Below, piece after piece: positions 48,206 through 64,000 of a stretch of 64,000 nucleotides of DNA (position 1 is its first letter; every line of letters starts with the position of its first letter). The position numbers and the translations under genes were made by a program. Source of the DNA: Flavobacteriaceae bacterium GF1 (GTDB taxonomy: Bacteria; Bacteroidota; Bacteroidia; Flavobacteriales; Flavobacteriaceae); contig WNKP01000002.1 in assembly GCA_009797885.1 (NCBI GenBank), positions 434,001-498,000 of the forward strand, written 5' to 3'. The notes below the pieces were generated by a model. It worked only from the letters and a program-made list of their open reading frames with translations. It was not told where the DNA came from and ran no database searches.

Positions 48206-48272
48206 AATTTAAGGTTTATTTCAATAAATTCACACAAGAACAATTGTGTTTTTGAAATACGAGCGAGGCGAC

Positions 48273-49295
48273 ATGAAAAAAAAGGCTTCATTAAAGGACA
48301 TTGCAAAGGAGTTGGGTGTTTCCGTAGCAACGGTATCCTATGTGCTTACCGAAAAGAAGGATAGTCGGGTAAGTCCTGCTATGGCCAAAAAGGTGAAGGA
48401 GGTAGCCAAGCGGTTAAATTACCAACCCAATACCGTCGCCCAAAGTTTAAAAACAGGCTCAACAAATACCATAGGACTTATATTGGCGGATATCTCAAAT
48501 CCATTTTTTGCGAACATCGCCAGGGTCATAGAAGACGAAGCCGCTAAGTCCAACTATACGGTAATTTTTGGAAGTTCTGATGAAAAAGCTTCAAAATCAA
48601 AACAACTCATAGATTTTTTGTCAAGCCGTCAGGTGGATGGATTTATCATTGCACCATCCGAAGGAGGGGAAGAACATTTAAGGCTATTACAAAAACAAGG
48701 AATGCCCGTAGTTTTAATTGATAGGTTTTTCCCTGAAGTATTCAGTGATCAGGTTATGATAGATAATTTTAAGGCGTCTTTTGATTTGGTTGAAGAGTTG
48801 GTGAAATCAGGTCATAAAAATATAGGAATGCTTGCCTATGGAAACAGTTTGCATCATATGCAGGAGCGCGTTAGGGGGTATCAATCCGTTTTAAAAAAAT
48901 ATGATTTGAAAAGTACTCCGGATAAACTAGGTCATATTCCTTATGAAAACATTTTATTTGAAGTTGAGTCGGCCATTGATAAAATGTTAGCCTCCAAAGA
49001 ACCGATCGATTCCATTTTTTTTGCCACTAACACTTTGGCTATCAGAGGTTTGAAATATTTTCACAAACTGAATATAAAAGTTCCGGACGATGTGGCGGTG
49101 GTTAGTTTTGATCAAGGTGAAGCATTTGATTTTTATTATTGTCCGTTGACCCATGTGCGACAACCCTTGGAAAAAATGGCAAAAAATGCGGTCCATTGCC
49201 TTATAGATCGCATTGAAAACCCTTCACTACCAAACAAGACCATATGCTTGGAAGCTGAGGTTGTGGTCCAGGAATCCTCAGCAAAAACGCACTGA
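48273..49295 (+). CDS. LacI-family transcriptional regulator of the sugar locus
   Basis: 340 residues from the ATG at 48273, chosen because the helix-turn-helix (S-L-K-D-I-A-K-E-L-G-V-S-V-A-T-V-S-Y-V-L) must start within the first ten residues; an upstream GTG is less likely. The hinge helix region is Y-Q-P-N-T-V-A-Q-S-L. The periplasmic-binding-protein-type effector domain begins with T-I-G-L-I-L-A-D-I-S-N-P-F-F. It lies directly before fucI in the same direction. Likely ligand: a sugar or sugar phosphate of the pathway; likely operators are the two TTAAACG palindromes in this locus (inference). Confidence 0.92.
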   Translation: MKKKASLKDIAKELGVSVATVSYVLTEKKDSRVSPAMAKKVKEVAKRLNYQPNTVAQSLKTGSTNTIGLILADISNPFFANIARVIEDEAAKSNYTVIFGSSDEKASKSKQLIDFLSSRQVDGFIIAPSEGGEEHLRLLQKQGMPVVLIDRFFPEVFSDQVMIDNFKASFDLVEELVKSGHKNIGMLAYGNSLHHMQERVRGYQSVLKKYDLKSTPDKLGHIPYENILFEVESAIDKMLASKEPIDSIFFATNTLAIRGLKYFHKLNIKVPDDVAVVSFDQGEAFDFYYCPLTHVRQPLEKMAKNAVHCLIDRIENPSLPNKTICLEAEVVVQESSAKTH

Positions 49296-49342
49296 TCGTA
49301 GCATTGAGTTAACAGTATCATAACTGCCTTTGATTTTTCTGT

Positions 49343-49365
49343 TTAAACGATTAAGCATATCTTTG
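49343..49365 (+). promoter_or_regulatory. LacI-type operator and -7 box before fucI
   Basis: TTAAACGATTAA (49343-49354) is a palindrome around a central CG with one mismatch; TATCTTTG (49358-49365) is a perfect -7 box three bases later. A repressor bound there would block the fucI operon promoter. Nearly the same palindrome occurs before the GH151-like gene. The 77 bases between it and fucI hold no further element that I can name. Confidence 0.65.
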
Positions 49366-49442
49366 AAAAAATCGGGTACTTTAAAACAGGTGCTTTAGAA
49401 AATGACTATTGTAAAACCATATAACCGTTAACCAAACAGGAT

Positions 49443-51200
49443 ATGAATCCAAAAATTGGAATTAGGCCAATTATAGATGGTCGCCTCGGTGGCGTCCGTG
49501 AATCTTTGGAAGAAACGACGATGCAGATGGCTCGTAATGTTGCCAAGTTTTATGCCGAGAATTTAAAATACCCAGATGGGACCCCAGTTGAATGTGTCCT
49601 TTCGGATTCTTGTATTGGCGGTGTGAAAGAGGCGTTGGACTGTGCCAGAAAGTTTAAGATGGAAAATGTTGGTGTTTCCTTATCAGTTACACCGTGCTGG
49701 TGCTATGGGACGGAAACCATGGACATGGATGCCACCATACCCAAGGCTATTTGGGGTTTTAATGGTACGGAACGTCCCGGTGCCGTATATCTGGCGGCCA
49801 CTTTGGCCGGACATAACCAAAAAGGACTTCCCTGCTTTGGAATTTACGGTCGTGATGTGCAAGATCTTGGGGACCAGGAAATTCCCAAGGATGTACAAAA
49901 GAAACTATTGTCATTTGCGCGTGCTGGTCTAGCCGTTGCTTTAATGAGAGGACGATCCTATTTGGCTATTGGCTCTGTTTCCATGGGCATTGCTGGTTCC
50001 GAGATTCAATCAGATTTCTTCCAATCCTATCTAGGAATGCGAAATGAGTTTGTTGACTCAACTGAAGTTCTTCGTCGAATGGATTTTAATATCTATGACC
50101 AGGAGGAATATCAAAAAGCTTTAAAATGGACCAAAAAACACTGCAAGGAGGGTGAGGATTTCAACGAAATCGATAAACAAAGATCCAGGGAGCAAAAGGA
50201 CAACGACTGGGAGGTTGTGGTTAAAATGGCCCTTATTATTCGCGATTTAATGGAAGGCAATCCCAAATTGGCGGAAATGGGTCATGGTGAAGAGGCCTTG
50301 GGACACGACGCCTTGGTAAGCGGCTTTCAGGGCCAAAGACAATGGACGGATTTTCTGCCCAACGGTGATTTCGCCGAGGCTATTCTTAATTCTTCCTTTG
50401 ATTGGAACGGTCTTCGGAAACCATTTTTGGTAGCCACTGAAAATGATTCCCTAAACGGCATTTCTATGTTGTTCAATCATTTGTTGACCAATACCGCACA
50501 GATTTTTGCAGATGTCAGAACGTATTGGAGCCCAGAATCCGTTGAACGGGTTACGGGATGGAAACCGGAGGGGCATGCTTCAAATGGCTTTATTCATTTG
50601 ATCAATTCCGGATCGGCCACTTTGGACGGTTCGGGACAACAACAAAAAGATGGCAAGCCGGTAATGAAGCCTTTTTGGGAGATTACGGAAGATGAAAAGG
50701 AAGCTTGCCTGGAAGCGACCACATGGTATCCTGCCGATTTGGGATACTTCCGGGGTGGGGGCTATTCTTCCAATTTTCTAACAAAGGGCGCTATGCCCTT
50801 GACCATGTGCCGTATCAACCTGATCAAAGGTTTGGGACCTGCACTTCAAATTGCCGAAGGTTGGAGTGTCGATCTTCCTGAGGATGTTCACAACGCTTTG
50901 GACGTCAGAACAAACAGGACATGGCCCACTACATGGTTTGTTCCCAATTTAACTGGCTCGGGTGCATTTGTGGATGTATATGCTGTGATGAATAATTGGG
51001 GGGCAAATCATGGGGCCATTAGTTACGGACATATTGGTGATGAACTGATTACTTTGGCCGCTATGCTTAGGATACCCGTTTGTATGCATAATGTGGGTGA
51101 GAACAGAATTTTTAGACCATCTGCTTGGAATTCCTTTGGTATGGACAAAGAAGGGCAAGACTACCGTGCATGTAGTGCCTATGGCCCGCTTTATTCCTAA
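49443..51200 (+). CDS. fucI: L-fucose isomerase
   Basis: 585 residues, close to E. coli FucI (591) by length and by many conserved runs: [12 protein letters not shown] near the start, [44 protein letters not shown], and W-G-A-N-H-G near the end. It uses Mn2+ and turns L-fucose into L-fuculose; FucI enzymes also turn D-arabinose into D-ribulose. The stop overlaps the next start (TAATG), so the kinase is translationally coupled. Confidence 0.96.
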
Positions 51201-52882
51201 TGCGTCTTTTGTCTATGAATGATTCCAGCCCTTTAGTGATTGGTGTAGATTATGGCACTGCCTCTGTTAGGTCCCTTATTGTGGATGCCTATTCTGGGGA
51301 GGAAATGGCTACTTCCGTGTTTGAATACCCAAGATGGAAAGCTCGAAAATACGTTGATGATAACAAAAATCAATATCGTCAACATCCCCTTGATTACATT
51401 GAAGGTTTACAACACACCTTAACTGAAAGTTTAGCTAAGCTTACCCCCAAACAGCGAAAGCAAATCAAGGCTATTTCAGTGGATACCACTGGTTCAACAC
51501 CCGTAGCGGTCGATAGCAAAGGAGTACCCCTTGCCCTGTATCCGAAGTTTAAGGATAATCCCAATGCCATGTTTTTTCTTTGGAAAGATCATACGGCCAT
51601 CAAAGAGGCAGGGGAAATCAACGAGCTGTCCGTACAAGGAGGGATAAATTATTTGGACTATTGTGGGGGAATTTATTCGTCTGAATGGTATTGGGCGAAA
51701 TTGCTGCACGTACTTCGTATGGACGAGGAAGTGAGGAACGCTTGCCATGCTTGGGTAGAGCATTGTGACTGGATTCCGTTCTTGCTTACAGGCGGCCGTG
51801 GTGTAGCAGATATTAAAAGGAGCGTTTGTGCTGCAGGCCATAAGGCACTATGGTCTCCCAAATGGGCCGGTTTTCCTCCGGATACTTTTTTCAAAGAATT
51901 GGATCCCCTCTTAATGCGTATTGTGAAAAATATGCCCTCCAGCGTCTTTACTTCTGATAGGGCTGCCGGAACATTATGCGCGGAATGGGCCAAGAAACTT
52001 GGTCTTGACACCAATGTGGTGATAGGAATTGGTGCACTTGACGCCCATATGGGTGCTGTAGGAGGAGAAATAGCCCCTAATTACCTCAGCAAAGTAATGG
52101 GTACCTCTACCTGTGATATGATGGTAATTTCGAAGGAAAATATTGGAGATACCCTGATTCCTGGAATTTGTGGTCAAGTTGATGGGTCCATAATCCCAGG
52201 ATTTATCGGATTGGAGGCTGGTCAGTCGGCCTTTGGTGATGTTTTTGCCTGGTTCAAAGAGCTGTTGCTCTGGCCAATTATTGATTTTAAGTCAAAGCAC
52301 ACGGACCTATCCAAAAAAACCGTAAACGACATCACCCAAATCCAAGAGGATATTTTGGTCCAGTTGAGTGAAAAAGCCGCTGCGATCGTGCCTACGGTTA
52401 CTTCCGAGTTTGCCGTGGAATGGCTCAATGGAAGAAGGACACCCGATGCCAATCCTCTTTTGACCGGCGCTTTAAAACATCTGACACTGGGATCTGGCCC
52501 CCCCGAAATTTACAGGGCCTTGGTGGAGGCCACTTGTTTTGGGGCAAAAAGTATTGTTCAGCGTTTTATTGAAAATGGTATCCTGGTTGAAGGGGTAAAT
52601 GGAGTTGGCGGGGTAGCAAAAAAATCCCCTTTTGTAATGCAGATGATGGCCGATATTCTCGAAATGCCCATTAGAATACATAGATCCGAACAAACCTGCG
52701 CACTGGGTGCCGCTATGTTTGCGGCTACAGTTGCAGGAATATATAAAAATGTACAAGAAGCAATCGATAAGATGGGTGTGGGCTTTGAAAAAGAGTATAT
52801 CCCTTCCTTAAGGTATCGTGATATTTACAGAACACGGTATCAAAACTATCTTGATTGGAGTGCTCAAATTGAAAAAAGTTAA
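51200..52882 (+). CDS. Ribulokinase-type (AraB-like) FGGY kinase
   Basis: 560 residues. FGGY kinase with the AraB pattern: G-V-D-Y-G-T-A-S-V-R-S-L at the start, D-T-T-G-S-T-P-V, F-F-L-W-K-D-H-T-A, Y-C-G-G-I-Y-S-S-E-W-Y-W-A-K, and G-F-I-G-L-E-A-G-Q-S-A-F-G-D. These are ribulokinase, not fuculokinase, signatures. Known ribulokinases phosphorylate L- and D-ribulose and some related ketoses. It is coupled to fucI, so the expected substrates are L-fuculose or D-ribulose. A second ATG at 51215 is possible. Confidence 0.9.
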   Translation: MRLLSMNDSSPLVIGVDYGTASVRSLIVDAYSGEEMATSVFEYPRWKARKYVDDNKNQYRQHPLDYIEGLQHTLTESLAKLTPKQRKQIKAISVDTTGSTPVAVDSKGVPLALYPKFKDNPNAMFFLWKDHTAIKEAGEINELSVQGGINYLDYCGGIYSSEWYWAKLLHVLRMDEEVRNACHAWVEHCDWIPFLLTGGRGVADIKRSVCAAGHKALWSPKWAGFPPDTFFKELDPLLMRIVKNMPSSVFTSDRAAGTLCAEWAKKLGLDTNVVIGIGALDAHMGAVGGEIAPNYLSKVMGTSTCDMMVISKENIGDTLIPGICGQVDGSIIPGFIGLEAGQSAFGDVFAWFKELLLWPIIDFKSKHTDLSKKTVNDITQIQEDILVQLSEKAAAIVPTVTSEFAVEWLNGRRTPDANPLLTGALKHLTLGSGPPEIYRALVEATCFGAKSIVQRFIENGILVEGVNGVGGVAKKSPFVMQMMADILEMPIRIHRSEQTCALGAAMFAATVAGIYKNVQEAIDKMGVGFEKEYIPSLRYRDIYRTRYQNYLDWSAQIEKS

Positions 52883-52888
52883 CCTTAT

Positions 52889-54727
52889 ATGCCTACAAAA
52901 GTCAGAAATAGTTCCGAACTGCAAAGTGCGATTGACCACCTTAACAGCGGGGCTGGTCAAAAACACCTTATTTTGGATCAAGGGGACTATTTTTTTGAAC
53001 GTCCACTTGAAATAAATTCCAACTGTTCAGGATTGGTTATTGAAGGTGCTGGAAAAGTCAATCTGTTTGGGGGAGTACGTATCACCAGATGGCAGAAAAA
53101 AAATGACTTTTTATGGTCTGCTAAATTACCTCAAACATCCAATGTTCCTTTGGATTTTCGTATGCTTATCGTAAATGGGCGGTATGCCGATAGGGCAAGG
53201 TTGCCCGAAAAAGGCTTTTTCATTCACGAAACCGAGTTTGATGTGACTTGGAAAAGTACCTACGAAGGTGGTTTTGAACGACAACCTACACCTAAAGAGC
53301 TTACAACTTTAAAATATAAGCCAGAGGACATACCAAAAACGCTTGAGCCTAAAAATGCCGAGTTGACCATTTTTCATATGTGGGACGAATCTTTGGTGGG
53401 GGTAAAGCGTATTGATGGAACTGCCCGTACGATTACATTTTCCAATCCGTCAGGTTGGCCACCTGGTGCTTTCACCAAGGCCTACAACTTTGAAAAACGT
53501 TACATTCTTTGGAACACTATTGAGGGAATGACAAAACCAGGGCAATGGTTTCTGGATAGAAGGCATGGCGAAATTGTATACTGGCCCTTGGAAAATGAAC
53601 GTATGCAGGAGGCCACCATTATTGCTCCTTGTTTGGAAAGTTTGATCATTGTAGGACATTCTGATGAGGATATCGTTACCGACATTCAAATTAAGAATAT
53701 GTCAATTTCTGCTACGAATGCCCCATTGATGAGTGGTGCATTTGGTGCTAAATTATTTGATGGAGCCGTTTCGTTGCGGAATGTGGAAGGAGCCACTTTG
53801 CAAAATCTCAATATATTCAATGTTGGGGCACACTGCATAAAAGCTTCCGGTGACCATATTTCAATACGTTCCTGCCATCTGCATAACGCCGGTGCCGGTG
53901 CAATACGTTTAGTAGGTTCACATGCTTTAATACACAATAACCACATACATGATATTGGTAAGACATTTCCGAGTGCCATCGCAATGTACGTTGGTGCTAC
54001 CGACCCAAATGTACCCGAGGAATGGGAAGCTGGAAAGTTGTACACCGACTGCAAAATAACCCATAATGAACTTCATGATGTGCCTTACGCTGCGATATGT
54101 GCCGGAGGTAAAAACTTGAGAATAGAAAAAAACCTGGTCCATAGGGCCATGCAGAATTTGTATGATGGTGCAGGTATTTACATAACGTTCTGTACCAATG
54201 CCTTGGTCAAACAAAATTTCATTCGGGATATAAAGGATACACCAGGGGCAGGTACTTCTGCCTATTATCTGGATGAAAAAGCGATTGATTGTACCATAGA
54301 AGAAAATGTTGAGATCAATGTGCCAAGGCCCAGTCATAACCACATTGCCTTCAACAATACGTTTAGGAACAATATTTTCATTATGAAGGGTAAAGGCTGG
54401 TTTTCCTTGGAACGAAGTAAAGGATACCATTTTGAAAAAAATGTGATGGTGGCTACTGAAGGTTTGGAATTTTACGATATGGTTGCCGTGGAACGGCTGG
54501 AGAATAATATTCTATGCCCAGGTCAAGGGCAACTTATCACCAAAGAGCTTGACCATTACGACGTACGCTCGGCATATGAATTAAAATTGGAAAATGGAAA
54601 TACCACTGATGATCCCTTACTCCTGAATTATGAAAATGGAAAAATTCAATTTGCCAATGATTCCATTGCCCACAAGTTAGGGATTCAAGAAGTGGATGTT
54701 TCAGATGCAGGATTAATTAAAGAGTGA
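52889..54727 (+). CDS. Right-handed beta-helix protein, GH141-like
   Basis: 612 residues without a signal peptide, so it should be cytoplasmic. The N-terminal part has the G-A-G-K-V-N-L-F-G-G-V-R-I-T segment and V-N-G-R-Y-A-D-R-A-R-L-P, typical for the GH141 type of beta-helix enzymes. Parallel beta-helix coils fill about residues 260-520 (I-R-S-C-H-L-H-N-A-G-A-G-A-I-R-L, I-H-N-N-H-I-H-D-I-G). GH141 includes an alpha-L-fucosidase and xylanase. The family call is by recall of motifs, not a search. It starts 6 bases after the kinase gene. Confidence 0.65.
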   Translation: MPTKVRNSSELQSAIDHLNSGAGQKHLILDQGDYFFERPLEINSNCSGLVIEGAGKVNLFGGVRITRWQKKNDFLWSAKLPQTSNVPLDFRMLIVNGRYADRARLPEKGFFIHETEFDVTWKSTYEGGFERQPTPKELTTLKYKPEDIPKTLEPKNAELTIFHMWDESLVGVKRIDGTARTITFSNPSGWPPGAFTKAYNFEKRYILWNTIEGMTKPGQWFLDRRHGEIVYWPLENERMQEATIIAPCLESLIIVGHSDEDIVTDIQIKNMSISATNAPLMSGAFGAKLFDGAVSLRNVEGATLQNLNIFNVGAHCIKASGDHISIRSCHLHNAGAGAIRLVGSHALIHNNHIHDIGKTFPSAIAMYVGATDPNVPEEWEAGKLYTDCKITHNELHDVPYAAICAGGKNLRIEKNLVHRAMQNLYDGAGIYITFCTNALVKQNFIRDIKDTPGAGTSAYYLDEKAIDCTIEENVEINVPRPSHNHIAFNNTFRNNIFIMKGKGWFSLERSKGYHFEKNVMVATEGLEFYDMVAVERLENNILCPGQGQLITKELDHYDVRSAYELKLENGNTTDDPLLLNYENGKIQFANDSIAHKLGIQEVDVSDAGLIKE

Positions 54728-54774
54728 GGATAAAATTTCAAAAAAAAGACCAAAATAACTAGCTAAAATTTAAG

Positions 54775-55857
54775 ATGAACACAATTGACAAGTCAAAAGC
54801 TGGGGCCAGTTTAAAAGTTTTTAGATCGCCCAAAAATCCGATTATTTCACCAAAAGATGTCAAACCTTCACAAAACGATTTTGAGGTCGTTTGTGTATTC
54901 AATTGTGGCGTCATCAGATTTGAAGGTGATGTGCTACTATTGCTAAGGGTAGCCGAAAGACCCATTGCCAGAAACGAAAATGAAGTTCGAACGGTTTACT
55001 TTGACCACGAAAAGAGTGAAATTACCGTAAAATCATTTGACAAAAATATGAAGGGCATTGGTCTCCACGACTCCCGATATATTTACACCCCCGAACGAAT
55101 TTATCTTTCTTCCATGTCTCATTTTAGGGTTGCCCGCAGCAAAAACGGAATTGATTTTGATATTGATGACGAACCTTGTATGTTGCCCAGTAACGTCTAT
55201 GAGATGTACGGTATAGAAGATCCCAGAATCACATTGATAGACGATACCTACTATATCAATTACAGTGCATGTTCAACCATTGGTGGGGTCACAACGTGTT
55301 TGGCAACAACCAAAGACTTTAAAAACTATGAGAAGCACGGGGTCATCTTCACCCCGGATAACAAGGATGTTGCCATTTTCCCTGAGAAAATCAATGGAAA
55401 ATATTATGCCTTGAGTCGACCTATTTCAGCGGAATATAAACTTAAGGATATCTGGATTGCTGAATCACCCGATCTTATCTGTTGGGGCAATCATAAATTC
55501 TTGATGAGCACCAGGGAGAATTACTGGGACGATGGTAGAATCGGTTGTAGTGCCGTCCCCTTTAGAACGGAAAAGGGATGGTTGGAGATCTATCATGGTG
55601 CTTCAAAGGACAATGTGTATTGTTTGGGAGCGGCCTTATATGATGGCAATGATCCCTCAAAAGTATTGTCCCGTTCAGAAAACCCCATAATGCTGCCCGA
55701 GGAGGAGTATGAAATCAATGGGTTCTTTGGTAATGTTATTTTCAACTGTGGGGTATTGGTGGAAGATGGGATAGTGAAAATTTATTACGGTGCAGCGGAT
55801 ACGTATATCGGCTATGCGGAGGTAAAATTACAGGACATTTTGGACGACTTGAAATAG
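54775..55857 (+). CDS. GH130-family-like glycoside phosphorylase or hydrolase
   Basis: 360 residues, no signal peptide. A five-bladed beta-propeller is indicated by repeated strands. The family's acid segment Y-G-I-E-D-P-R-I-T near residue 145 includes the Asp that acts as general acid in GH130 enzymes; V-F-N-C-G-V-I-R near the start and Y-Y-G-A-A-D-T-Y-I-G-Y near the end also fit. Known members phosphorolyse or hydrolyse beta-mannosides; the substrate here is probably different, given its place next to fucI. Function is inferred; specificity is unknown. Confidence 0.75.
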   Translation: MNTIDKSKAGASLKVFRSPKNPIISPKDVKPSQNDFEVVCVFNCGVIRFEGDVLLLLRVAERPIARNENEVRTVYFDHEKSEITVKSFDKNMKGIGLHDSRYIYTPERIYLSSMSHFRVARSKNGIDFDIDDEPCMLPSNVYEMYGIEDPRITLIDDTYYINYSACSTIGGVTTCLATTKDFKNYEKHGVIFTPDNKDVAIFPEKINGKYYALSRPISAEYKLKDIWIAESPDLICWGNHKFLMSTRENYWDDGRIGCSAVPFRTEKGWLEIYHGASKDNVYCLGAALYDGNDPSKVLSRSENPIMLPEEEYEINGFFGNVIFNCGVLVEDGIVKIYYGAADTYIGYAEVKLQDILDDLK

Positions 55858-55923
55858 TGGTAATCAAACGTCACTTAAAGATGGTGAACCAAACAAGTGG
55901 ACTAACCTTTTATAACTAGGACC

Positions 55924-57105
55924 ATGACAAATGCGATTCGAGCCATTTACTTTTTCTTTCATGTTGGATTGGGATGCGTATTTGCCTTTTTAGTTCCGTA
56001 TTTGGGAGCAGAAGGTTTTTCCGATGCGGAAATAAGTTCCATTTTCTTCTTGGGTTCCCTTTGTGGGGCCATCGGTGTGCCCTTGTTCTGGGGGTATCTT
56101 TCCGATAGGGTAGGGAAACCGCAATTGGTAGTGAAAATATTGACATTGGGAACGTTGATCGGAAGTATTCCCTTATTATTTCTAAAGGACTATTGGCCAT
56201 TTTTGATTTCCTATTTTGTCTATTCATTTTTTTCCATCGGTATAATGGGTATCCTGGATGCGATGGCCTCCACCCTTGCCAAGGAAAAAGGGATCGATTT
56301 TGGCCGTCTGCGATTATTTGTGCCCGCCGGCTGGTTTCTGGGCTCTATTTTAATGGGTGCTTACTTGGAGTATTTTGAGAAAGCGTGGAACGATGTGGCA
56401 GTGATTGCCGGTATGGTCATAAGTTTTTCCTTAATGTTTCTCGCTTCGTTGTTTTTGAAAAAATCCACAATCGAAAATCAGGAAAGACCCAAAACCAAAG
56501 ATATGTTGGCCCTTTTTAAGGATAAGGGGCTCATGGTCTTTTTCCTAATGGCCTTTTTGAATTTTATTGCCTTAGCAGCATATATGGGCAACTATAGCCA
56601 ATTGATCAAGGCTGCGGGCCATGGTGCATTTGTTGTTAGTATGGCCTTTGCCGTAGCCACCCTATCCGAAGTAATTTTTATGCTCTTATTTGAAAGGTTG
56701 AAAAATTGGATAGGTATTTATTGGGTAATCATTTCCTCGGTCCTGATCAGTATCATTCGATGGTTGATCGTTGCCAATACCACAGATGCCAATGTTTTGG
56801 TGGGGATTCAAGTCTTACACTCTGAAATAGGTCTTTTTACGTTGGCCTGTGTATCCTTGATTACGGATAGCGTACCAAAAAAGATTGTCACCACCGCACA
56901 GACACTATTTTATACCTTGACCTATGGTTTAGGGCTCTTTTTGGGTGGCATATTGATGGGCGCTATTGGCGATACCACCTACAACGGATACCGTAATATG
57001 TTTTTGATTTCTGCTTTGCTACATGTGATTCCGCTTTTTCTATGTTTTGTAGTGAAGCGAATGGCACTGGCCAAGAACCTGACCGAACCATTGAATTATG
57101 ATTGA
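55924..57105 (+). CDS. MFS transporter
   Basis: 393 residues with about twelve membrane helices. The loop between helices 2 and 3 holds G-Y-L-S-D-R-V-G-K-P-Q, the MFS signature, and the general look is of the LacY/nucleoside-proton symporter branch (H-V-G-L-G-C-V-F-A-F-L-V-P-Y-L). It lies in the sugar operon 66 bases after the GH130-like gene. It may import a disaccharide or oligosaccharide for the cytoplasmic enzymes encoded before it (inference). Confidence 0.85.
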   Translation: MTNAIRAIYFFFHVGLGCVFAFLVPYLGAEGFSDAEISSIFFLGSLCGAIGVPLFWGYLSDRVGKPQLVVKILTLGTLIGSIPLLFLKDYWPFLISYFVYSFFSIGIMGILDAMASTLAKEKGIDFGRLRLFVPAGWFLGSILMGAYLEYFEKAWNDVAVIAGMVISFSLMFLASLFLKKSTIENQERPKTKDMLALFKDKGLMVFFLMAFLNFIALAAYMGNYSQLIKAAGHGAFVVSMAFAVATLSEVIFMLLFERLKNWIGIYWVIISSVLISIIRWLIVANTTDANVLVGIQVLHSEIGLFTLACVSLITDSVPKKIVTTAQTLFYTLTYGLGLFLGGILMGAIGDTTYNGYRNMFLISALLHVIPLFLCFVVKRMALAKNLTEPLNYD

Positions 57106-57179
57106 AAAGAAGTTTAACAACTTACTGTCCCATGCGATATAACTGTAGCACCGACAACAGGGAATAAAGTCCATAAAAT

Positions 57180-57225
57180 GGTATTGCCGCATGAGGAAAG
57201 ATATATAGGAATGTACGGCAATACC
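57180..57225. repeat. Inverted repeat before the nucleoside-hydrolase-like gene
   Basis: GGTATTGCCG (57180-57189) and CGGCAATACC (57216-57225) are perfect inverse copies 26 bases apart; CAT and ATG just inside extend the stem past a two-base bulge. There is no T-run after it, so it is more likely an RNA processing or stability element than a terminator. A weak LacI-like TTAACGCTTAA follows at 57226. Confidence 0.6.
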
Positions 57226-57250
57226 TTAACGCTTAAAAGAAAAAGATATA

Positions 57251-58297
57251 ATGATTATACATATGGGATTACATAACCGAAAACTATTACTATGCCTATT
57301 CGTTTTTAGCGCGGTATTTGGAATAGGCCAAAAAAATGAAGTTCCTCAAATCATTTTTGATACGGATATGGGAGGGGATATTGATGATCTTGGAGCGCTC
57401 TACGCCCTAAATGTTTACGCAGATCAAGGAAAATGTAATATCAAGGCCGTGATGTCTTCTTGGGCAATGGCTTTTCACGTAGATGGGATAGATGCCGTGA
57501 ACACCTACTTTGGGCGACCTGACATTCCGATAGGGGCCCATGAGGACGAATGGTATGAAGTGGAAGCGTATACTTGGTTTCTGGGGGAAGAATTTCCACA
57601 TGATATCACGGGTAGAAAAGCCCCAAAGGCAACGGAATTGTACCGTGAAATACTGTCAAAAAGTGAAGATACGAGTATTACCATTGTGGTTACAGGTAGG
57701 CTCAACAATATTGAAAAACTGCTGAAATCGGGTCCGGATATCCATTCCAAAAAAAATGGAATCGACTTGATCAAACAAAAGGTCAAGCATCTTTACATCA
57801 TGGGGGGTGGCTATGCCGGGCAGTCCTTTCCAGAGTCCAATTTTAAATGGGGTGGGGAGGGGCTCACGCAATACGTTATTGAAAATTGTCCGAGCCCCAT
57901 GATTTTTAATGGACTTGAAATTGGACATGCAGATGAAGGTTATGCCACGGGAGAAAGGATAAATGACCTTTCATCGGGTCATATTTTAAAGGAAGGTTAT
58001 GGATATTTCTTCAAAAATCCACCGGAATGGACACGTTTGGCACCGGACGACACCATTAAACCGTGGTCCATTTGGGATATCATAACGGTTCAGGTGGCCG
58101 TTACCGGAGTTCAAGACTATTTTGAAGAAGTGTCGGTGGGCCATAACCATGTGCTCAAGTCTGGTCTGAATGTTTGGAAGGATGACCCGGATAAAGACCA
58201 CACCTACCTTATCAAAAAAATGGAGCCAGAAGTATATGCCGATAAAGTGATTCAATCGCTATTGATGACTCCAGCTTTGTTTCAAAGCAGACAATAA
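57251..58297 (+). CDS. Secreted nucleoside-hydrolase-like protein
   Basis: 348 residues. A signal peptide (L-L-L-C-L-F-V-F-S-A-V-F-G) is followed at about residue 35 by I-I-F-D-T-D-M-G-G-D-I-D-D, the calcium- and ribose-binding signature of nucleoside hydrolases. A second part has V-T-G-R-L-N-N-I and I-M-G-G-G-Y-A. Known enzymes split N-glycosidic bonds of nucleosides, releasing ribose. Here it is exported and sits in a fucose-type locus, so it may act on another pentose or deoxyhexose glycoside (inference). An alternative ATG lies at 57263. Confidence 0.8.
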   Translation: MIIHMGLHNRKLLLCLFVFSAVFGIGQKNEVPQIIFDTDMGGDIDDLGALYALNVYADQGKCNIKAVMSSWAMAFHVDGIDAVNTYFGRPDIPIGAHEDEWYEVEAYTWFLGEEFPHDITGRKAPKATELYREILSKSEDTSITIVVTGRLNNIEKLLKSGPDIHSKKNGIDLIKQKVKHLYIMGGGYAGQSFPESNFKWGGEGLTQYVIENCPSPMIFNGLEIGHADEGYATGERINDLSSGHILKEGYGYFFKNPPEWTRLAPDDTIKPWSIWDIITVQVAVTGVQDYFEEVSVGHNHVLKSGLNVWKDDPDKDHTYLIKKMEPEVYADKVIQSLLMTPALFQSRQ

Positions 58298-58359
58298 GGG
58301 TAATAGTATATTAGAAGCAATCCTATAAAGGAGTTTGCCCAACCAATTAAGACAATTGT

Positions 58360-59679
58360 ATGGAGAAATCACAAAAACCCATCGTAAGAAAGGAATTGGT
58401 TTTCCCTTTTATAATGATTACTTCCCTTTTCTTTTTATGGGGTATCGCCAATGATTTGACCAATCCGATGGTCTCGGCATTTAAAAAGGTGATGCCGGAG
58501 CTTTCCAATTTTGAAGCTGCATTGGTGCAACTTGCTTTTTATGGAGGCTATGCTACCATGGCCATTCCTGCGGCACTATTCATAAGGAGATATAGTTACA
58601 AAAAAGGGATACTATTGGGCTTGGCACTGTATGCTGTCGGAGCTTTTTTATTTTATCCTGCTGCTTCCTACGAACAGTTTGGGTTTTTCCTGGCGTCTTT
58701 GTACGTTCTCACTTTTGGTTTGGCCTTTCTTGAAACGACGGCCAACCCTTTTGTCCTCTCCATGGGTGATGCCGAAACGGCCACTCAACGTTTGAACCTG
58801 TCCCAGGCATTCAATCCCATGGGCTCTCTTTTGGGAATGTTGGTAGCACAGATTTTTGTAATACAATCCCTGCGTTCGGATGACTATTCAACAGAAGCCT
58901 ATAATGCCTTGGGAATAGCCGAGAAAGCCGCCATACGGGAAAACGACCTGGGCATCATTAGCTATCCCTATATTGCTTTGGGAATATTGGTGCTGGTCAT
59001 TCTCTTGATAATCGCCTTGACGAAATTTCCAACGGTCAAAAAAGAGGCCGAAATATCTTTGAAAGCGTCATTTGCCAAATTGTTGAAGAACAAGGGTTAC
59101 TATGAAGGGGTCATAGCACAGGCGTTTTATGTAGGCGCACAGATCATGTGCTGGACATTTATTTTTCAATATGTGGATGAAATGAACATGGACCGTAGCC
59201 CCGACGAACAACTTACCGCCACTTGGTACAATATGGCGGCCATGGTTTTATTTCTTTCCGGGCGGTGGATATGTACATGGTTGTTGAAATATATCAAGTC
59301 AGCAAGACTAATGCTGTACTTTGCCATGGGAGGGGTAATCTGTTGTGCATTGACCATATTGTTGCCGGGCATTTTGGGCTTATACGCCTTAGTGGGTATA
59401 AGCATATGTATGTCCCTCATGTTCCCCACCATCTATGGTATTGCACTGAAAGATATGGGCGATGAAGCAAAATTGGGTTCTGCAGGCTTGGTTATGGCCA
59501 TTGTTGGCGGGGCATTGATGCCTCCATTACAAGCAGCTATTTTGGACTGGGGAGGACCTGGTTTTTCAGACGTTCAACTTCTGGGTTTTGTACCGGAAGT
59601 TCGTTTTTCCTTTGTGCTGCCACTTTTTTGTCTGGTCGTTGTGGGCATCTATAGCTATCGATCTTTACACCGAACTTAA
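58360..59679 (+). CDS. fucP: L-fucose/proton symporter, FucP type
   Basis: 439 residues, length as in E. coli FucP (438). Twelve helices with F-F-L-W-G-I-A-N-D-L-T-N-P-M in the first, A-F-Y-G-G-Y-A-T-M-A-I-P-A in the second, and L-E-T-T-A-N-P-F-V-L, all FucP-family hallmarks. It imports L-fucose (or relatives such as D-arabinose) with protons. The gene ends 4 bases before the convergent permease gene and closes the sugar operon. Confidence 0.88.
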   Translation: MEKSQKPIVRKELVFPFIMITSLFFLWGIANDLTNPMVSAFKKVMPELSNFEAALVQLAFYGGYATMAIPAALFIRRYSYKKGILLGLALYAVGAFLFYPAASYEQFGFFLASLYVLTFGLAFLETTANPFVLSMGDAETATQRLNLSQAFNPMGSLLGMLVAQIFVIQSLRSDDYSTEAYNALGIAEKAAIRENDLGIISYPYIALGILVLVILLIIALTKFPTVKKEAEISLKASFAKLLKNKGYYEGVIAQAFYVGAQIMCWTFIFQYVDEMNMDRSPDEQLTATWYNMAAMVLFLSGRWICTWLLKYIKSARLMLYFAMGGVICCALTILLPGILGLYALVGISICMSLMFPTIYGIALKDMGDEAKLGSAGLVMAIVGGALMPPLQAAILDWGGPGFSDVQLLGFVPEVRFSFVLPLFCLVVVGIYSYRSLHRT

Positions 59680-59683
59680 GTAT

Positions 59684-61147
59684 CTAGTGTATCCCCAAAA
59701 TAGGTAAGACCACATAATAAAGAAGCAAGGGCAGGGCAATGATACTGATAAGGTTTAACCAGAACCCCGTTTTTGCCATGTCTCCAATACGTAATCGTTC
59801 GCTCGCGAAAATCACAGTATTGGTCCCTGTACCTGACGGCAGCATAAAAGCGAACGAGCAGGCAAAAGTAGCAGGTACCATGACTAGAAGGGGATTTATA
59901 CCTCCCGAAACGGCAATTGCTGCCAATATGGGTAAAAAAATGGTTGCGGTTGCGGTGTTTGAATTCACCTCGGTCAGGAAAATAATGAAACAGACAATCA
60001 AAACGATGAGCAGAAATACCGGAATATTTTCAAGTGCCGTAAACTTGTTTCCAATCCAAACGGCCAGCCCCGTACTTCCAAAGGCCTTGCCCAACGCCAA
60101 ACCACCCCCTAAAAACATGGCCACCCCCCAAGGTATGTCCTTGGCCAAGTTCCAGTTCATCAATCTACCACCTTTGCCGTTTGGCGTAATGAACAACAGA
60201 ATGGCCCCTAAGAAAGCAACGGTGCTGTCGTGCATATAATCCGGATAGTTAAGCCAGTTGCTCCAGCCTGGGATTGAAAAAGCTCCAATGGTTATGTTTT
60301 TTCTAAAAACCCATCCAAGGGCAGTCAGAAGAAAAATGACCGATATCCTTTGCTCTCCACTACTGATTTTACCCAAATCCCCCAAATCATCGATTACGAT
60401 ACTTTTGTCTTTCTTGATTCGGAAAAAAAGGACAAGGAACACCCATGTCAATGGAATAAAGATGAGAACTACGGGTAAACCCATGGTCATCCACTTTAAA
60501 AAATCGAGGGATGGTAGGTTAGGGGACAATTCTTCCAAGAGGCCGGCAAGCACCAAATTTGTTGGACTTCCGATTAATGTGCCAGTACCACCAATACTGG
60601 CGGCATAGGCAATGCCCAAAAGTAAGGCCAAACCAAATTTTTTGTCCTCACTGGTCCCTTTCCCATCTATCATGGCCACAGCTATTGGCAACATAATCAA
60701 TACCACGGCCATATTGGTAATCCACATGGATAGAAAAGCGGTAATCAGCATAAAGCCTAGAATGATGATTCTTTTATTCGTTCCCAAGCGACGGATAAAC
60801 CAAAATGCCAATCGGCGATGTAGCATTTGCTTTTCAATGCCCTTGGCCAGGATAAATGCACCAAGTAGCATCAGGACATAGTTGTGACCATAGCTGACAC
60901 TGGTTTCGGCTGAGTTCAAAATACCCAATGTTGGAAACAACAGTATGGGAAGAAAGGCCGTAATATAGATAGGTATGGCTTCCGTTACCCACCAAACGAT
61001 CATTAAAAGAGCCACCGCCATTAATCTTTGACCTTCCGGAGAAAGCGTATTGGGGGTAGGTATCAGTACTACGACAACAAACAAAATCAACCCTGTGTAA
61101 AGGCCAATTTTTCTCAGTTCCATTTTCGTACGATTTTTGGCTGGCAA
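59684..61147 (-). CDS. DASS/SLC13-family carrier
   Basis: 487 residues, about eleven membrane helices, an alternative Met at 61123 fits the membrane start better. The family motifs S-I-G-G-T-G-T-L-I-G-S-P-T-N-L-V near residue 195 and S-G-T-G-T-N-T-V-I-F-A near residue 440 are clear; these form the Na+ and carboxylate sites in VcINDY-type carriers. Substrates are dicarboxylates or sulfate in known cases. It is convergent to fucP, directly before the GH151-like genes on the minus strand. The link with sugar use is unclear; it may import an organic acid product. Confidence 0.85.
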   Translation of the reverse strand: MPAKNRTKMELRKIGLYTGLILFVVVVLIPTPNTLSPEGQRLMAVALLMIVWWVTEAIPIYITAFLPILLFPTLGILNSAETSVSYGHNYVLMLLGAFILAKGIEKQMLHRRLAFWFIRRLGTNKRIIILGFMLITAFLSMWITNMAVVLIMLPIAVAMIDGKGTSEDKKFGLALLLGIAYAASIGGTGTLIGSPTNLVLAGLLEELSPNLPSLDFLKWMTMGLPVVLIFIPLTWVFLVLFFRIKKDKSIVIDDLGDLGKISSGEQRISVIFLLTALGWVFRKNITIGAFSIPGWSNWLNYPDYMHDSTVAFLGAILLFITPNGKGGRLMNWNLAKDIPWGVAMFLGGGLALGKAFGSTGLAVWIGNKFTALENIPVFLLIVLIVCFIIFLTEVNSNTATATIFLPILAAIAVSGGINPLLVMVPATFACSFAFMLPSGTGTNTVIFASERLRIGDMAKTGFWLNLISIIALPLLLYYVVLPILGIH

Positions 61148-61312
61148 TACATAAGCCCTGTTGTTTTTTACGATTACCTTGATTGATTTTTAATAGCCCT
61201 AAGGCACATAAATCGACCAATTCATAATCCCTATGTTTTTATGACCACTGATAAGACCAACAAATTGAAATCATAAAACGTATGTACCATAGGGTAGGAA
61301 TCTTGGTTGAAA

Positions 61313-63382
61313 TCAATACTCAAAAACAATGGCCGTATGCATTGTAAAAGTTGGTACCTTAACCTTAATGCGCGTGCCATCTTTTGTAAATTCCAAAGGC
61401 CTGTTACCTGGCACTTGTACTACTTTTTTGATGGGTTCCTCTACCTGAAGTGTCAATGCAACATTGGGTACTGGCAAAAAATCTTCAATAACACTCACGT
61501 CACCCCTGAGCAAAGGTGGGGCATATAGCAGATGGGCCACATATCTATTTTTACCCTTTTGATTTAAAAGGCTAACACGACCGGAACTCGGCAGATGGTC
61601 TACTTTTAAGTTGGGGTTTTTATACAAAAGGTCTATGGCATTTTTTACCAGTTGTCGATGTAGAAATACTCCATCTTTATGGTACAGTCTGTCCAAAGCA
61701 TGTGCAAAAAACAGGATGTTTCCATTTCTTATGACTGCAGGATATTCAGAATCTTCCAATTTGTAAGGGGTCTCCCTATGACCATTGAACTTGTCATAGG
61801 TCCTATTGAAATAGGGTTCACGTATCTTGGCAAGAACCTCTCCCTTAGTTGATTTAACCAAAAGTCCGGCCTTATAATTCAAGAAAGGGGTAGTGACAAC
61901 GTCTTTTCCCAAATCCTTCTTCACGACCGTGAAATCAAATTGAAAATCTGATGGCCCTATATAGTCCGCCCCAACGTCAAACAAAAATTTATTTCGTGTT
62001 TCGTTTAAGGCTCCATCAGCAAAGACAATCAGTTTTCCGCCCCTATCTACCCAATCATTGATTTTTTTTGCCTGTTCAGGGGTGATTGAGGGTTCGCTTG
62101 GGATGATGATAAGCTCAAAGTCATCTAAATTATCTGCTTCAGCCACTTTAAAGTCGTCATGGGTTTCCAGGAGCATATTGATGACACCGTGATCGGCGGA
62201 TACATCCAATGTTAGCCATATGCCCAGTTTGGACACTGGTACTCCGCCAGGGCCATAGTCTTCTATTTGTTTGACATATTCATAGGCGTGTCCAATATTC
62301 CTATAGGTTTCCATATCCATCTCACCCGAAGGGTGTAATTGGTCACCGAAGTTGCATGAGGCACCAAACGAAATCATGGCCGCGGCTTCATATTTTATGG
62401 CATCTTTATGCTTAAAGCCACCAAATTCACCCCATGCTTTATGAAATTTTCCGCTCATGCCCACTGCTGGTGTACCCTGTTGTAAGTGGTATTTGGCATC
62501 TAAGGGTAATTTATTGTACCCACCCCAAGTGGTAGGTAGGTCTTCCAAATCTTGATGGGTGTCCATATCAAAAAGCCGCTCTTTGAAAAGATAGACATCT
62601 TTGATTCGAGTAACGGCATTGAAGTACACGGTAGCCTCAGGATTGTACTTGGCGACCAACTGCCTGAGTTCTTTCATGTGGGCTTTTAACGCCAATGCAT
62701 GACTACGTTCCACGGCCAGTGTATCCGTAATATCGATACCTTCCTTTTTCATTCTGGCCATGGCATATTGGTTGTAGTTGGTTTTCGCTACATGGTAGAT
62801 ATCGAACCAAAAGCCGTCAAAATCGGGATATCGTTGGCAAATTTCTTCTACCTGTTTCATGATGTGTTCATGATAAGGCGTGCCAATGCTGGGATCCATT
62901 CGCTTCCAAAGATAGGTGGGTCGTTCGGTATCAGGTGACGTATCCCAGTCATAACCGGGAGCATTGATGGATCCGTCCTTGTTGCGAATTGTCCATTCGG
63001 GGTGTTCCCGTGCGTCAAGTTCACTCCATCCAATGGTAAAATAGAATGGGGCCTTGACGCCAATTTCATGGCAGGCCTCCAGTTGTGCACCAAGAAGGTC
63101 GAAATCCAAATTGGGGTGCATTTTACCCACTTTCGATGGATAGTAGGTCCAGCCATGATGTCCCTTGCTAAAAATATTGATATGGTTGATGTTACCAGCT
63201 TTTAAAGCAGCCTGAAACTGCTTTTTGTCAAATTTTTTTCCAATATCAGGGATGTGTTCGGAGGTATGGAAGTCTAAATGTACCTGCCTTGTGGGCATGG
63301 GCTGATCAATACTTCGTTGGGTCTGGGCGACACTACCTTGAGCACCTAAAAAAATACAAATAATGCTGACTATTTTGCGCAT
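61313..63382 (-). CDS. Secreted GH151-like putative alpha-L-fucosidase
   Basis: 689 residues with a signal peptide ending at V-A-Q. A TIM barrel fills about residues 30-370: V-H-L-D-F-H-T-S-E-H-I-P near the start, K-G-H-H-G-W-T-Y-Y-P, F-D-G-F-W-F-D-I-Y-H near 200 (Asp is a candidate nucleophile), then F-G-A-S-C-N-F-G-D-Q. A GH42-like trimerisation domain (about 390-600) and a beta-sandwich end follow. I place it near GH151 by recall of this pattern. Expected role: release of fucose or a like sugar from oligosaccharides in the periplasm. A LacI-type operator lies 10 bases before the start. Confidence 0.7.
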   Translation of the reverse strand: MRKIVSIICIFLGAQGSVAQTQRSIDQPMPTRQVHLDFHTSEHIPDIGKKFDKKQFQAALKAGNINHINIFSKGHHGWTYYPSKVGKMHPNLDFDLLGAQLEACHEIGVKAPFYFTIGWSELDAREHPEWTIRNKDGSINAPGYDWDTSPDTERPTYLWKRMDPSIGTPYHEHIMKQVEEICQRYPDFDGFWFDIYHVAKTNYNQYAMARMKKEGIDITDTLAVERSHALALKAHMKELRQLVAKYNPEATVYFNAVTRIKDVYLFKERLFDMDTHQDLEDLPTTWGGYNKLPLDAKYHLQQGTPAVGMSGKFHKAWGEFGGFKHKDAIKYEAAAMISFGASCNFGDQLHPSGEMDMETYRNIGHAYEYVKQIEDYGPGGVPVSKLGIWLTLDVSADHGVINMLLETHDDFKVAEADNLDDFELIIIPSEPSITPEQAKKINDWVDRGGKLIVFADGALNETRNKFLFDVGADYIGPSDFQFDFTVVKKDLGKDVVTTPFLNYKAGLLVKSTKGEVLAKIREPYFNRTYDKFNGHRETPYKLEDSEYPAVIRNGNILFFAHALDRLYHKDGVFLHRQLVKNAIDLLYKNPNLKVDHLPSSGRVSLLNQKGKNRYVAHLLYAPPLLRGDVSVIEDFLPVPNVALTLQVEEPIKKVVQVPGNRPLEFTKDGTRIKVKVPTFTMHTAIVFEY

Positions 63383-63391
63383 GGAAAAAGG

Positions 63392-63403
63392 TTAAACGTT
63401 TAA
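63392..63403 (-). promoter_or_regulatory. LacI-type operator before the GH151-like gene
   Basis: TTAAACGTTTAA is a perfect 12-base palindrome with central CG, 9 bases before the start codon, and it follows a -7-like TACATTTA (minus strand, 63414-63407). Eleven of twelve bases equal the site before fucI. No further gene is seen in the 176 bases up to the next gene; AGAACG and CGTTCT at 63491-63513 form a small hairpin. Confidence 0.65.
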
Positions 63404-63558
63404 TCATAAATGTAATAAAATTCAAGAAATTCCGGGCATTACATCCAATGGCTTTCTGCCTAGGTTCAAGAACGGTTTGATAATCTTCCAAGAACGCCAC
63501 CAGGGGACGTTCTGATGCTTTAAGCTCCATTGTTATATTCCAGGGGTTTTGGCCATTG

Positions 63559-64000
63559 TTACTCATATTCGAATACCACTGCCGTATGGCATTCCAGTTT
63601 TGGTACGGTCAACTTCAACTTGCCCTTATCGGTTTTTGTCTCCAATAGTTCACCGGAGGGAACCAGATATACGGCTGTCACTTTTTCGGGCAAATCAATT
63701 TCGAGCGGCACATCGTACAACGATACCAAATCTTCGATGACCCTTACAGAGCCCCTTTGTATCGGAGATGCATACATCAGATGAACAACGTACCTCTTGA
63801 GTTCTGGTTGATGCAAAAGATTAATACGGCCCATGCTTGGCATTTTGGTGGTCACTAGGGGCTTCTCCCTAAGAAGTTGCAGTGCATTGAAAAATAGATC
63901 TCTGTGTATCCTTGCACCCTCCTTTGCATATTGTCTGTCCAGATCATGGGCGATAAAGATGATATTACCATTCCTTATGACGGCCGGATGTAGGGCGGTA
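63559..64000 (-). CDS. Second GH151-like protein, C-terminal part (cut by window end)
   Basis: The frame is open from the right edge to 63559, 146 residues. It reads A-V-I-R-N-G-N-I-I-F-I-A-H-D-L-D-R-Q-Y and ends C-H-T-A-V-V-F-E-Y-E. The neighbour at 61313 has A-V-I-R-N-G-N-I-L-F-F-A-H-A-L-D-R-L-Y and ends M-H-T-A-I-V-F-E-Y, so the two are tandem paralogues. Only the end of the trimerisation-like domain and the beta-sandwich is present here; the catalytic part lies outside. It precedes the first GH151-like gene in the same direction. Confidence 0.75.
   Translation of the reverse strand, partial: TALHPAVIRNGNIIFIAHDLDRQYAKEGARIHRDLFFNALQLLREKPLVTTKMPSMGRINLLHQPELKRYVVHLMYASPIQRGSVRVIEDLVSLYDVPLEIDLPEKVTAVYLVPSGELLETKTDKGKLKLTVPKLECHTAVVFEYE

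Follow-up and report, generated by a model that had tools for sequence, protein, structure and literature searches.

A candidate D-arabinose route built on a FucI-type isomerase and an AraB-type kinase in a Flavobacteriaceae polysaccharide-utilization locus

We analyzed a stretch of 64,000 nucleotides from Flavobacteriaceae bacterium GF1 (GenBank assembly GCA_009797885.1, contig WNKP01000002.1, positions 434,001 to 498,000; hereafter the window), in which the gene for a FucI-type isomerase adjoins that for an FGGY kinase of the AraB type. The plus strand carries, in this order, lacI, fucI, the kinase gene and genes for a GH141-like enzyme, a GH130 enzyme, a major facilitator superfamily (MFS) transporter, a nucleoside-hydrolase-fold protein and FucP; these are followed on the minus strand by a DASS symporter gene, a GH151 gene and the 3' end of a second GH151 gene (Table 1). 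Two starts are candidates for lacI, the ATG at 48273 being likelier than the GTG at 48246. An earlier note on this DNA had described fucI and the kinase gene as overlapping, and we confirmed both open reading frames and read in the sequence the TAATG at 51198-51202 that is common to the fucI stop and the kinase start. Throughout, L-numbers denote locus stretches, G-numbers genomes (G000 is the genome of the window) and C-numbers contigs.

Table 1. Features of the locus, in positions of the 64,000-nucleotide window
Feature	Position	Strand	Evidence or remark
LacI-family regulator	48246..49295	+	PF00356/PF13377
Putative LacI operator TTAAACGATTAA	49343..49354	+	100 bp upstream of fucI
FucI-type ketol isomerase (L-fucose/D-arabinose isomerase)	49443..51200	+	TIGR01089, NF008220
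AraB-type FGGY kinase, proposed D-ribulokinase	51200..52882	+	family models, tree, contact residues
GH141-like beta-helix enzyme	52889..54727	+	PF21231 GH141_M; no signal peptide by eye
GH130 mannoside phosphorylase-like enzyme	54775..55857	+	PF04041 216.5 bits; no signal peptide by eye
MFS transporter (MFS_1_like), possible sugar/oligosaccharide importer	55924..57105	+	PF12832 155 bits
Nucleoside-hydrolase-fold protein, probably secreted	57251..58297	+	PF01156 49.6 bits; hydrophobic N-terminus by eye
FucP-type sugar:H+ symporter	58360..59679	+	TIGR00885 522.6 bits
DASS/Na+-sulfate-type anion symporter, regulon membership uncertain	59684..61147	-	PF00939, TIGR00785
GH151 enzyme, signal peptide by eye	61313..63382	-	6tvk match, operator motif 10 bp upstream
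Putative LacI operator TTAAACGTTTAA	63392..63403		10 bp upstream of GH151
Second GH151, 3' part, lipoprotein by eye	63559..64000, runs past window end (L018:1560-3659)	-	

The isomerase scored above the cut-offs of both FucI equivalog models (TIGR01089, 1070.9 bits, cut-off 850; NF008220, 1087.9 bits, cut-off 775). The kinase passed the ribulokinase model NF003154 (673 bits, cut-off 428), fell narrowly under the cut-off of TIGR01234 (575.7 against 583.25 bits) and reached 36.1 bits with the fuculokinase model TIGR02628, for which the cut-off is 470.9. This result bears out the earlier statement that the locus contains neither a fuculokinase-type gene nor a fuculose-phosphate aldolase gene: no fuculokinase-type kinase was found at the locus (no FucK-model search of the rest of the genome was made), and no class II aldolase gene lies there. 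Among sequences of solved structures, the top match of the kinase was the ribulokinase 3qdk (321 bits), in which K208, D274, and E329 are presumably ribulose contacts in addition to A96. At these four columns the kinase has G98, K215, D281, and E339, the same four letters as E. coli AraB, and FucK and RhaB are without this four-residue set. A96 is named as a ribulose-contact residue of 3qdk in the accessible part of a published study (PMC12307932).

We searched for aldolases with PF00596, the aldolase/AraD fold of FucA, RhaD, and AraD. The genome, which is 99.99% complete, gave 0 matches, and the control was positive in 12 of 14 cases; the earlier suggestion to search beyond the locus for a fuculose-phosphate aldolase sharing the LacI operator thus returned none at the fold level, and we rejected that possibility at this level. 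The locus shares FucI and FucP with the FucI-FucK-FucA pathway for L-fucose but differs from it in having no FucK-type kinase and, in the genome as a whole, no match to the FucA fold. Likewise, the kinase is 46% identical to the E. coli araBAD ribulokinase, with which it shares the contact letters, but it has no adjoining AraA or AraD, and AraD, the aldolase of the araBAD pathway for L-arabinose, has no fold match in this genome. A FucU search of the genome, run without a positive control, gave no match. In a sample of 397 genomes of the family, 121 have a PF00596 match and 28 carry FucI, 9 of them (the window genome included) as a FucI-AraB pair. PF00596 was found in 3 of these 9 genomes versus all 19 other FucI genomes (Fisher p 0.0002, kinship ignored). 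In a partly overlapping set of 43 searched genomes, it was missing from 9 of 15 FucI-AraB genomes and from 0 of the remaining 26 with FucI, among which we counted Dysgonomonas sp. UBA7710 and two Bacillota that have both kinase types; two same-genus genomes without FucI are excluded from the count, and L053 lies outside it. As a separate observation, many family genomes have a frame of ~431-458 amino acids with class II aldolase domains in tandem, seen as two stretches of PF00596 (for example, G159:C1:465247-466413 and G061:C1:28123-29289); in some genomes it lies near a frame of ~705 amino acids with one stretch.

The pairing recurs. We sorted 107 FucI rows by blastp with E. coli references against their neighbors within 9 kb, some stretches being short. 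An AraB-type kinase alone, with no match to a FucK/RhaB-type kinase or aldolase, was found in 20 rows (one a duplicate, leaving 19 loci with the window), and 2 rows from Bacillota had an AraB-type kinase together with a FucK/RhaB-type kinase and an aldolase. A FucK/RhaB-type kinase or an aldolase was present in 43 rows, and none of these in 42, one of which has a DarK-like kinase and another of which is the Dysgonomonas UBA7710 locus, where an AraB-type kinase lies ~16 kb from FucI. The 20 paired loci other than the window comprise 8 from Bacteroidota, 8 from further genomes of its family and 4 from Bacillota. Cultured relatives that carry the pair include Rufibacter roseus and Flavobacterium weaverense. 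Eight FucI relatives have at least 74% identity, and seven of them are AraB-paired; the eighth, L056 (75%), is unpaired in the stretch examined. The FucI-AraB pairing is not a chance association. In a kinase tree of 41 rows, the window kinase fell into a 100/100 clade of nine FucI-linked kinases, which represent four or more named families and stand apart from the araBAD kinases; FucI-linked and araBAD-linked kinases were separated by one change (81% of bootstraps), and DarK formed a long branch. Kinases of this type occur in 16 genomes of a 120-genome family sample, 15 of which have one with an adjoining AraD, the window being the exception, and in one of those 15 (G094) a second copy adjoins FucI. 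The window LacI is 53-57% identical to the LacI proteins of FucI-AraB loci L131, L051, and L052. The four Bacillota loci (L082, L096, L108, and L128) pair FucI with an AraB-like kinase that is 33-35% identical, and L082 and L096 also have a RhaB-like kinase and an aldolase.

GH172 and GH116 are families with known D-arabinofuranosidases, and GH172 includes exo-alpha-D-arabinofuranosidases. GH172 (PF11175) was located 40 kb or less from a FucI gene in 7 of 13 FucI-AraB genomes versus 3 of 23 others (p 0.018), the three others being UBA7710, with its more distant AraB-type kinase, L059, and L069. The UBA7710 locus contains LacI, FucP, GH172, GH116, DUF6786, FucI, SusC/D-type genes, and the kinase; GH116 is also present in L053. 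The FucI-AraB/GH172 locus of G269 closes with transketolase and transaldolase genes (L181:9163-11870). A transaldolase gene also stands beside araB in L002 and L005. DUF6786 (PF20583) is a recurrent FucI neighbor in loci of both the D-arabinan and the fucosidase type (L051:8694-9935 and nine further FucI-AraB loci); we guess that it is a mutarotase-like helper. We dropped it as a marker of D-arabinose, because it was seen by eye with FucI in L056 and L086 and was also found among the FucI genomes without the pair.

The best-supported reading is that D-arabinose is converted via D-ribulose to D-ribulose 5-phosphate (probability roughly 0.74), for which we infer the glycan, the substrate, and the kinase specificity. 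Its gene content, a FucI-type isomerase and a pentulose kinase without an aldolase, is present, and we favor it because no fucose-type aldolase was found in the genome. The locus would be the catabolic end of a LacI-controlled polysaccharide-utilization locus (PUL) from whose glycan D-arabinose is released, either as the sole sugar or together with other residues. Import would be by FucP (or the MFS transporter), FucI would isomerize the sugar to D-ribulose, and the kinase would phosphorylate this to D-ribulose 5-phosphate; since that product enters the pentose phosphate pathway, an aldolase would be unnecessary. According to the available part of one report (PMC12307932), the AraB enzyme of an E. 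coli strain acts as a kinase on D-ribulose and thereby feeds the same pathway. The earlier note had allowed either this route or the use of both sugars. The D-arabinose route emerged as the better supported, given the missing PF00596 aldolase and the relatives near GH172 and GH116; as for both sugars, the enzymes may be promiscuous, and no L-fuculose phosphate aldolase was found.

Several observations weigh against the D-arabinose reading. A single column of the alignment sets FucI-linked kinases apart from araBAD kinases (17 versus 16 rows, 5 diverged rows excluded), so that sequence does not discriminate between D- and L-ribulose. The pocket residues failed as proof of D-ribulose specificity. 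The absence of PF00596 from 6 of the 9 FucI-AraB genomes is no commoner than in FucI-negative family genomes (missing in 270 of 369, present in 99), so the aldolase would seem to be not needed rather than avoided. Mapped onto the tree of FucI, the AraB-type label takes nine changes, at least five of them forced, indicating that the pairing was gained or lost more than once. Neither GH172 (PF11175, 0 matches) nor DUF6786 was found in the window genome, and therefore its glycan differs from D-arabinan; a simple D-arabinan explanation through a GH172 of its own was abandoned. L059 and L069 combine FucI and GH172 with no AraB-type kinase in the stretch examined, and the transketolase-transaldolase pair was seen in one of the four Arenibacter-type loci read (not in the G244, G250, and Arenibacter stretches). 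GH29 genes lie near FucI-AraB in L061, L133, and L134; so do short-chain dehydrogenase/reductase (SDR) and amidohydrolase genes in L054 and L135 and an altronate-dehydratase-type gene in L053 and L054, the last three types possibly serving non-phosphorylative L-fucose use. Finally, FucP, GH151, the GH141-like enzyme, and a sulfatase together suit a sulfated fucose polymer.

If the locus degraded fucoidan, L-fuculose formed by FucI would be phosphorylated by the kinase to L-fuculose 1-phosphate, and this would be split by an unrecognized aldolase outside PF00596, for example of the ketose-bisphosphate type. Most identified fucoidan PULs contain GH141, according to the accessible part of one study (PMC12786026), and the window genome has a ketose-bisphosphate-type class II aldolase at C22:33.4 kb (TIGR00167, 261.8 versus 215.6 bits). 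However, no site of the putative operator motif TTAAACGNTTAA was recorded at C22:28-65 kb, the kinase is of the AraB type and far below the FucK cut-off, every other FucI genome of the family sample has PF00596, and FucI-AraB relatives often lie near D-arabinofuranosidase families, so that this L-fucose route appears unlikely. The surrounding stretch (G000:C22:28000-61000; L165, L166) is of the sugar-acid type, with DhaK, a class II fructose-bisphosphate-aldolase-like protein, four MR_MLE proteins, and a tartrate dehydrogenase. With 4 of the 9 MR_MLE matches scanned, its MR_MLE cluster looked like a sugar-acid locus rather than an evident route for L-fuconate. D-Arabinose could also be handled by FucI and the AraB-type kinase, with L-fucose of that glycan taking another route, such as a non-phosphorylative one, or being only transported. 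The SDR, amidohydrolase, and altronate-dehydratase-type genes of the relatives named above speak for such mixed use, and known L-fucose dehydrogenases accept both sugars, as stated in the part of the source available (PMC6336799), but the window locus has no genes of these three types and the scanned MR_MLE proteins (4 of the 9 in the genome) were below every curated cut-off; we regard it as quite unlikely. That FucI acts on another sugar, such as L-galactose or D-altrose, and the kinase on L-tagatose or D-psicose is very improbable, as the kinase is of the ribulokinase (pentulose) type and the locus has no pointer to these hexoses.

The D-arabinose reading would place two fucosidase-like families in a new light. 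The first GH151 enzyme matches, over nearly its full length (residues 27-689, 372.6 bits), the alpha-L-fucosidase 6tvk, which we take to be a GH151 member; the second is 48% identical to the first. GH151 of the window type (E <=1e-30) was found in 10 of the 397 family genomes, 4 of which have FucI, all 4 as FucI-AraB; it is thus present in 4 of 9 FucI-AraB genomes and in 0 of 19 other FucI genomes, and PF00596 had a match in 0 of the 10, several of which are incomplete. In G244, G250, and G269, GH151 comes after a run of GH172 genes, ~31-34 kb from FucI; G328, which is without FucI, has it close to GH172 and to a gene for an ASPIC-type protein. Proteins of the GH141-like kind that share 22-24% identity with that of the window occur in G244, G269, and Arenibacter loci. 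GH151 and GH141-like genes travel with D-arabinose-type loci, although the window genome is without GH172. The GH141-like enzyme scored 41.6 bits with GH141_M (against 27) and weakly matched BT_1002 (5mqp). Its candidate catalytic aspartates are D426, which aligns with the residue taken as the first of BT1002 after a numbering shift, and, on motif alone, D462. The catalytic aspartates of BT1002 are given as D523 and D564 in the available part of the source (PMC12786026).

The earlier proposal that these enzymes cut alpha-D-arabinosides needs correction: by our own configurational derivation, an alpha-L-fucopyranoside corresponds to a beta-D-arabinopyranoside, and D-arabinose could therefore be a product of the GH151 and GH141-like enzymes. 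GH151 outside the cytoplasm and the GH141-like enzyme within it may cut the beta-D-arabinopyranosyl linkages (similar to alpha-L-fucosyl ones) of a glycan that is sulfated and esterified. Literature searching for D-arabinopyranose in sulfated algal glycans returned nothing useful. It is a tentative and rather doubtful proposal that Bacteroidota have a dedicated clade of FucI-linked AraB-type D-ribulokinases and that some GH151/GH141-like "alpha-L-fucosidase" families in such loci are beta-D-arabinopyranosidases that open an unrecognized sulfated, D-arabinose-containing glycan.

The locus runs on past position 64000: operator motifs and co-directional genes continue for ~18 kb, so that the locus spans roughly 34 kb. 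There the minus strand completes the second GH151 gene and goes on to encode a beta-helix protein, two proteins of the FG-GAP/ASPIC type (of which one was scanned and the other assigned by grouping with it), SusD and SusC (both identified by eye), a sulfatase, and an esterase. In the genome of 5.28 Mb, the TTAAACGNTTAA motif was found at 10 places (16 strand matches; 3 for the reversed-pattern control), 5 of them inside the locus: those before fucI and GH151, two before SusC, and one at the esterase, within its longest frame and ~90 bp before an inner ATG (hand count). A mononucleotide estimate predicts ~6 places genome-wide, and therefore the signal is the clustering and not the total. The five sites outside fall within or next to other genes, which were identified by eye: one at a ribosomal protein gene, one where a POT-type transporter gene ends, one where a 910-aa gene begins, one upstream of an nrd-like gene, and one where a beta-helix gene of a polysaccharide-synthesis cluster begins (C11). 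This fifth site, a perfect TTAAACGTTTAA palindrome (G000:C11:850484), could be real. With at most one mismatch, the motif precedes fucI, GH172, DUF6786, lacI, or SusC in L131, L051, L052, L053, L054, L133, and L135, fucP in L061 and L134, and the kinase gene in L138 and L140; it was not found in L055, L057, L094, or L144 and was only intragenic in L139. One operator motif thus appears to tie the fucI operon to the GH151, SusC, and esterase-sulfatase genes, partly past the window end. The locus is probably a larger, LacI-controlled PUL reaching beyond the window, and we infer that this LacI is its regulator.

The combination of FucI and a D-ribulokinase for D-arabinose is already known in kind, from E. 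coli B and a Microbacterium D-arabinan locus. In the L-fucose-D-arabinose cluster of E. coli B, as described in the accessible parts of two papers (PMC12307932, PMC6336799), FucI makes D-ribulose and a dedicated FGGY kinase, DarK, forms D-ribulose 5-phosphate. As in the window, a LacI-family regulator adjoins the kinase gene; in contrast to the AraB-type kinase in a glycan locus here, that cluster has an ABC transporter and a distant, long-branch kinase. E. coli B REL606 retains fucK, and its kinase is recorded only as an FGGY kinase, DarK being deduced from position. Near this presumed DarK, fucA is annotated as two partial pieces around IS1 (L155:3971-5395), which is consistent with D-arabinose use without FucA. 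The D-arabinan PUL42 of Dysgonomonas gadei, as far as the source is available (PMC10115798), resembles the window in having FucI in a SusC/D-type locus, as does the UBA7710 locus, which further shares LacI, FucP, and an AraB-type kinase. The Dysgonomonas loci differ in having GH172 (D. gadei also DUF4185/GH183) in place of the window's GH151, GH141-like, GH130, and sulfatase genes; UBA7710 resembles PUL42 by gene content alone, no D. gadei sequence having been compared. The D-arabinan PUL of Microbacterium arabinogalactanolyticum differs in its ABC transporter and its GH183, GH172, and GH116 enzymes, as given in the accessible part of the report (PMC10509167). For one FucI-bearing bacterium, the part of the study available states that a candidate D-ribulokinase had not been identified (PMC3637100). 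New here are the clade of FucI-linked AraB-type kinases and its use in a GH151/GH141/sulfatase locus without GH172. Among the papers that our literature search listed, supplements aside, none was seen to describe a FucI and AraB-type pair in Bacteroidota or GH151 in D-arabinose loci.

Loci with FucI and FucP are easily annotated as fucose-use loci. If the D-arabinose reading is true, FucI-FucP loci with an AraB-type kinase and without a class II aldolase would be D-arabinose loci, the inferred diets of such bacteria would change, and D-arabinose glycans outside mycobacteria would be indicated; what GH151 and the GH141-like enzyme act on becomes a question that can be tested directly.

Two further genes deserve mention. 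The gene for the nucleoside-hydrolase-fold protein sits within the sugar operon, and the GH130-like enzyme scored 486.5 bits with NF050092, under the cut-off of 550.

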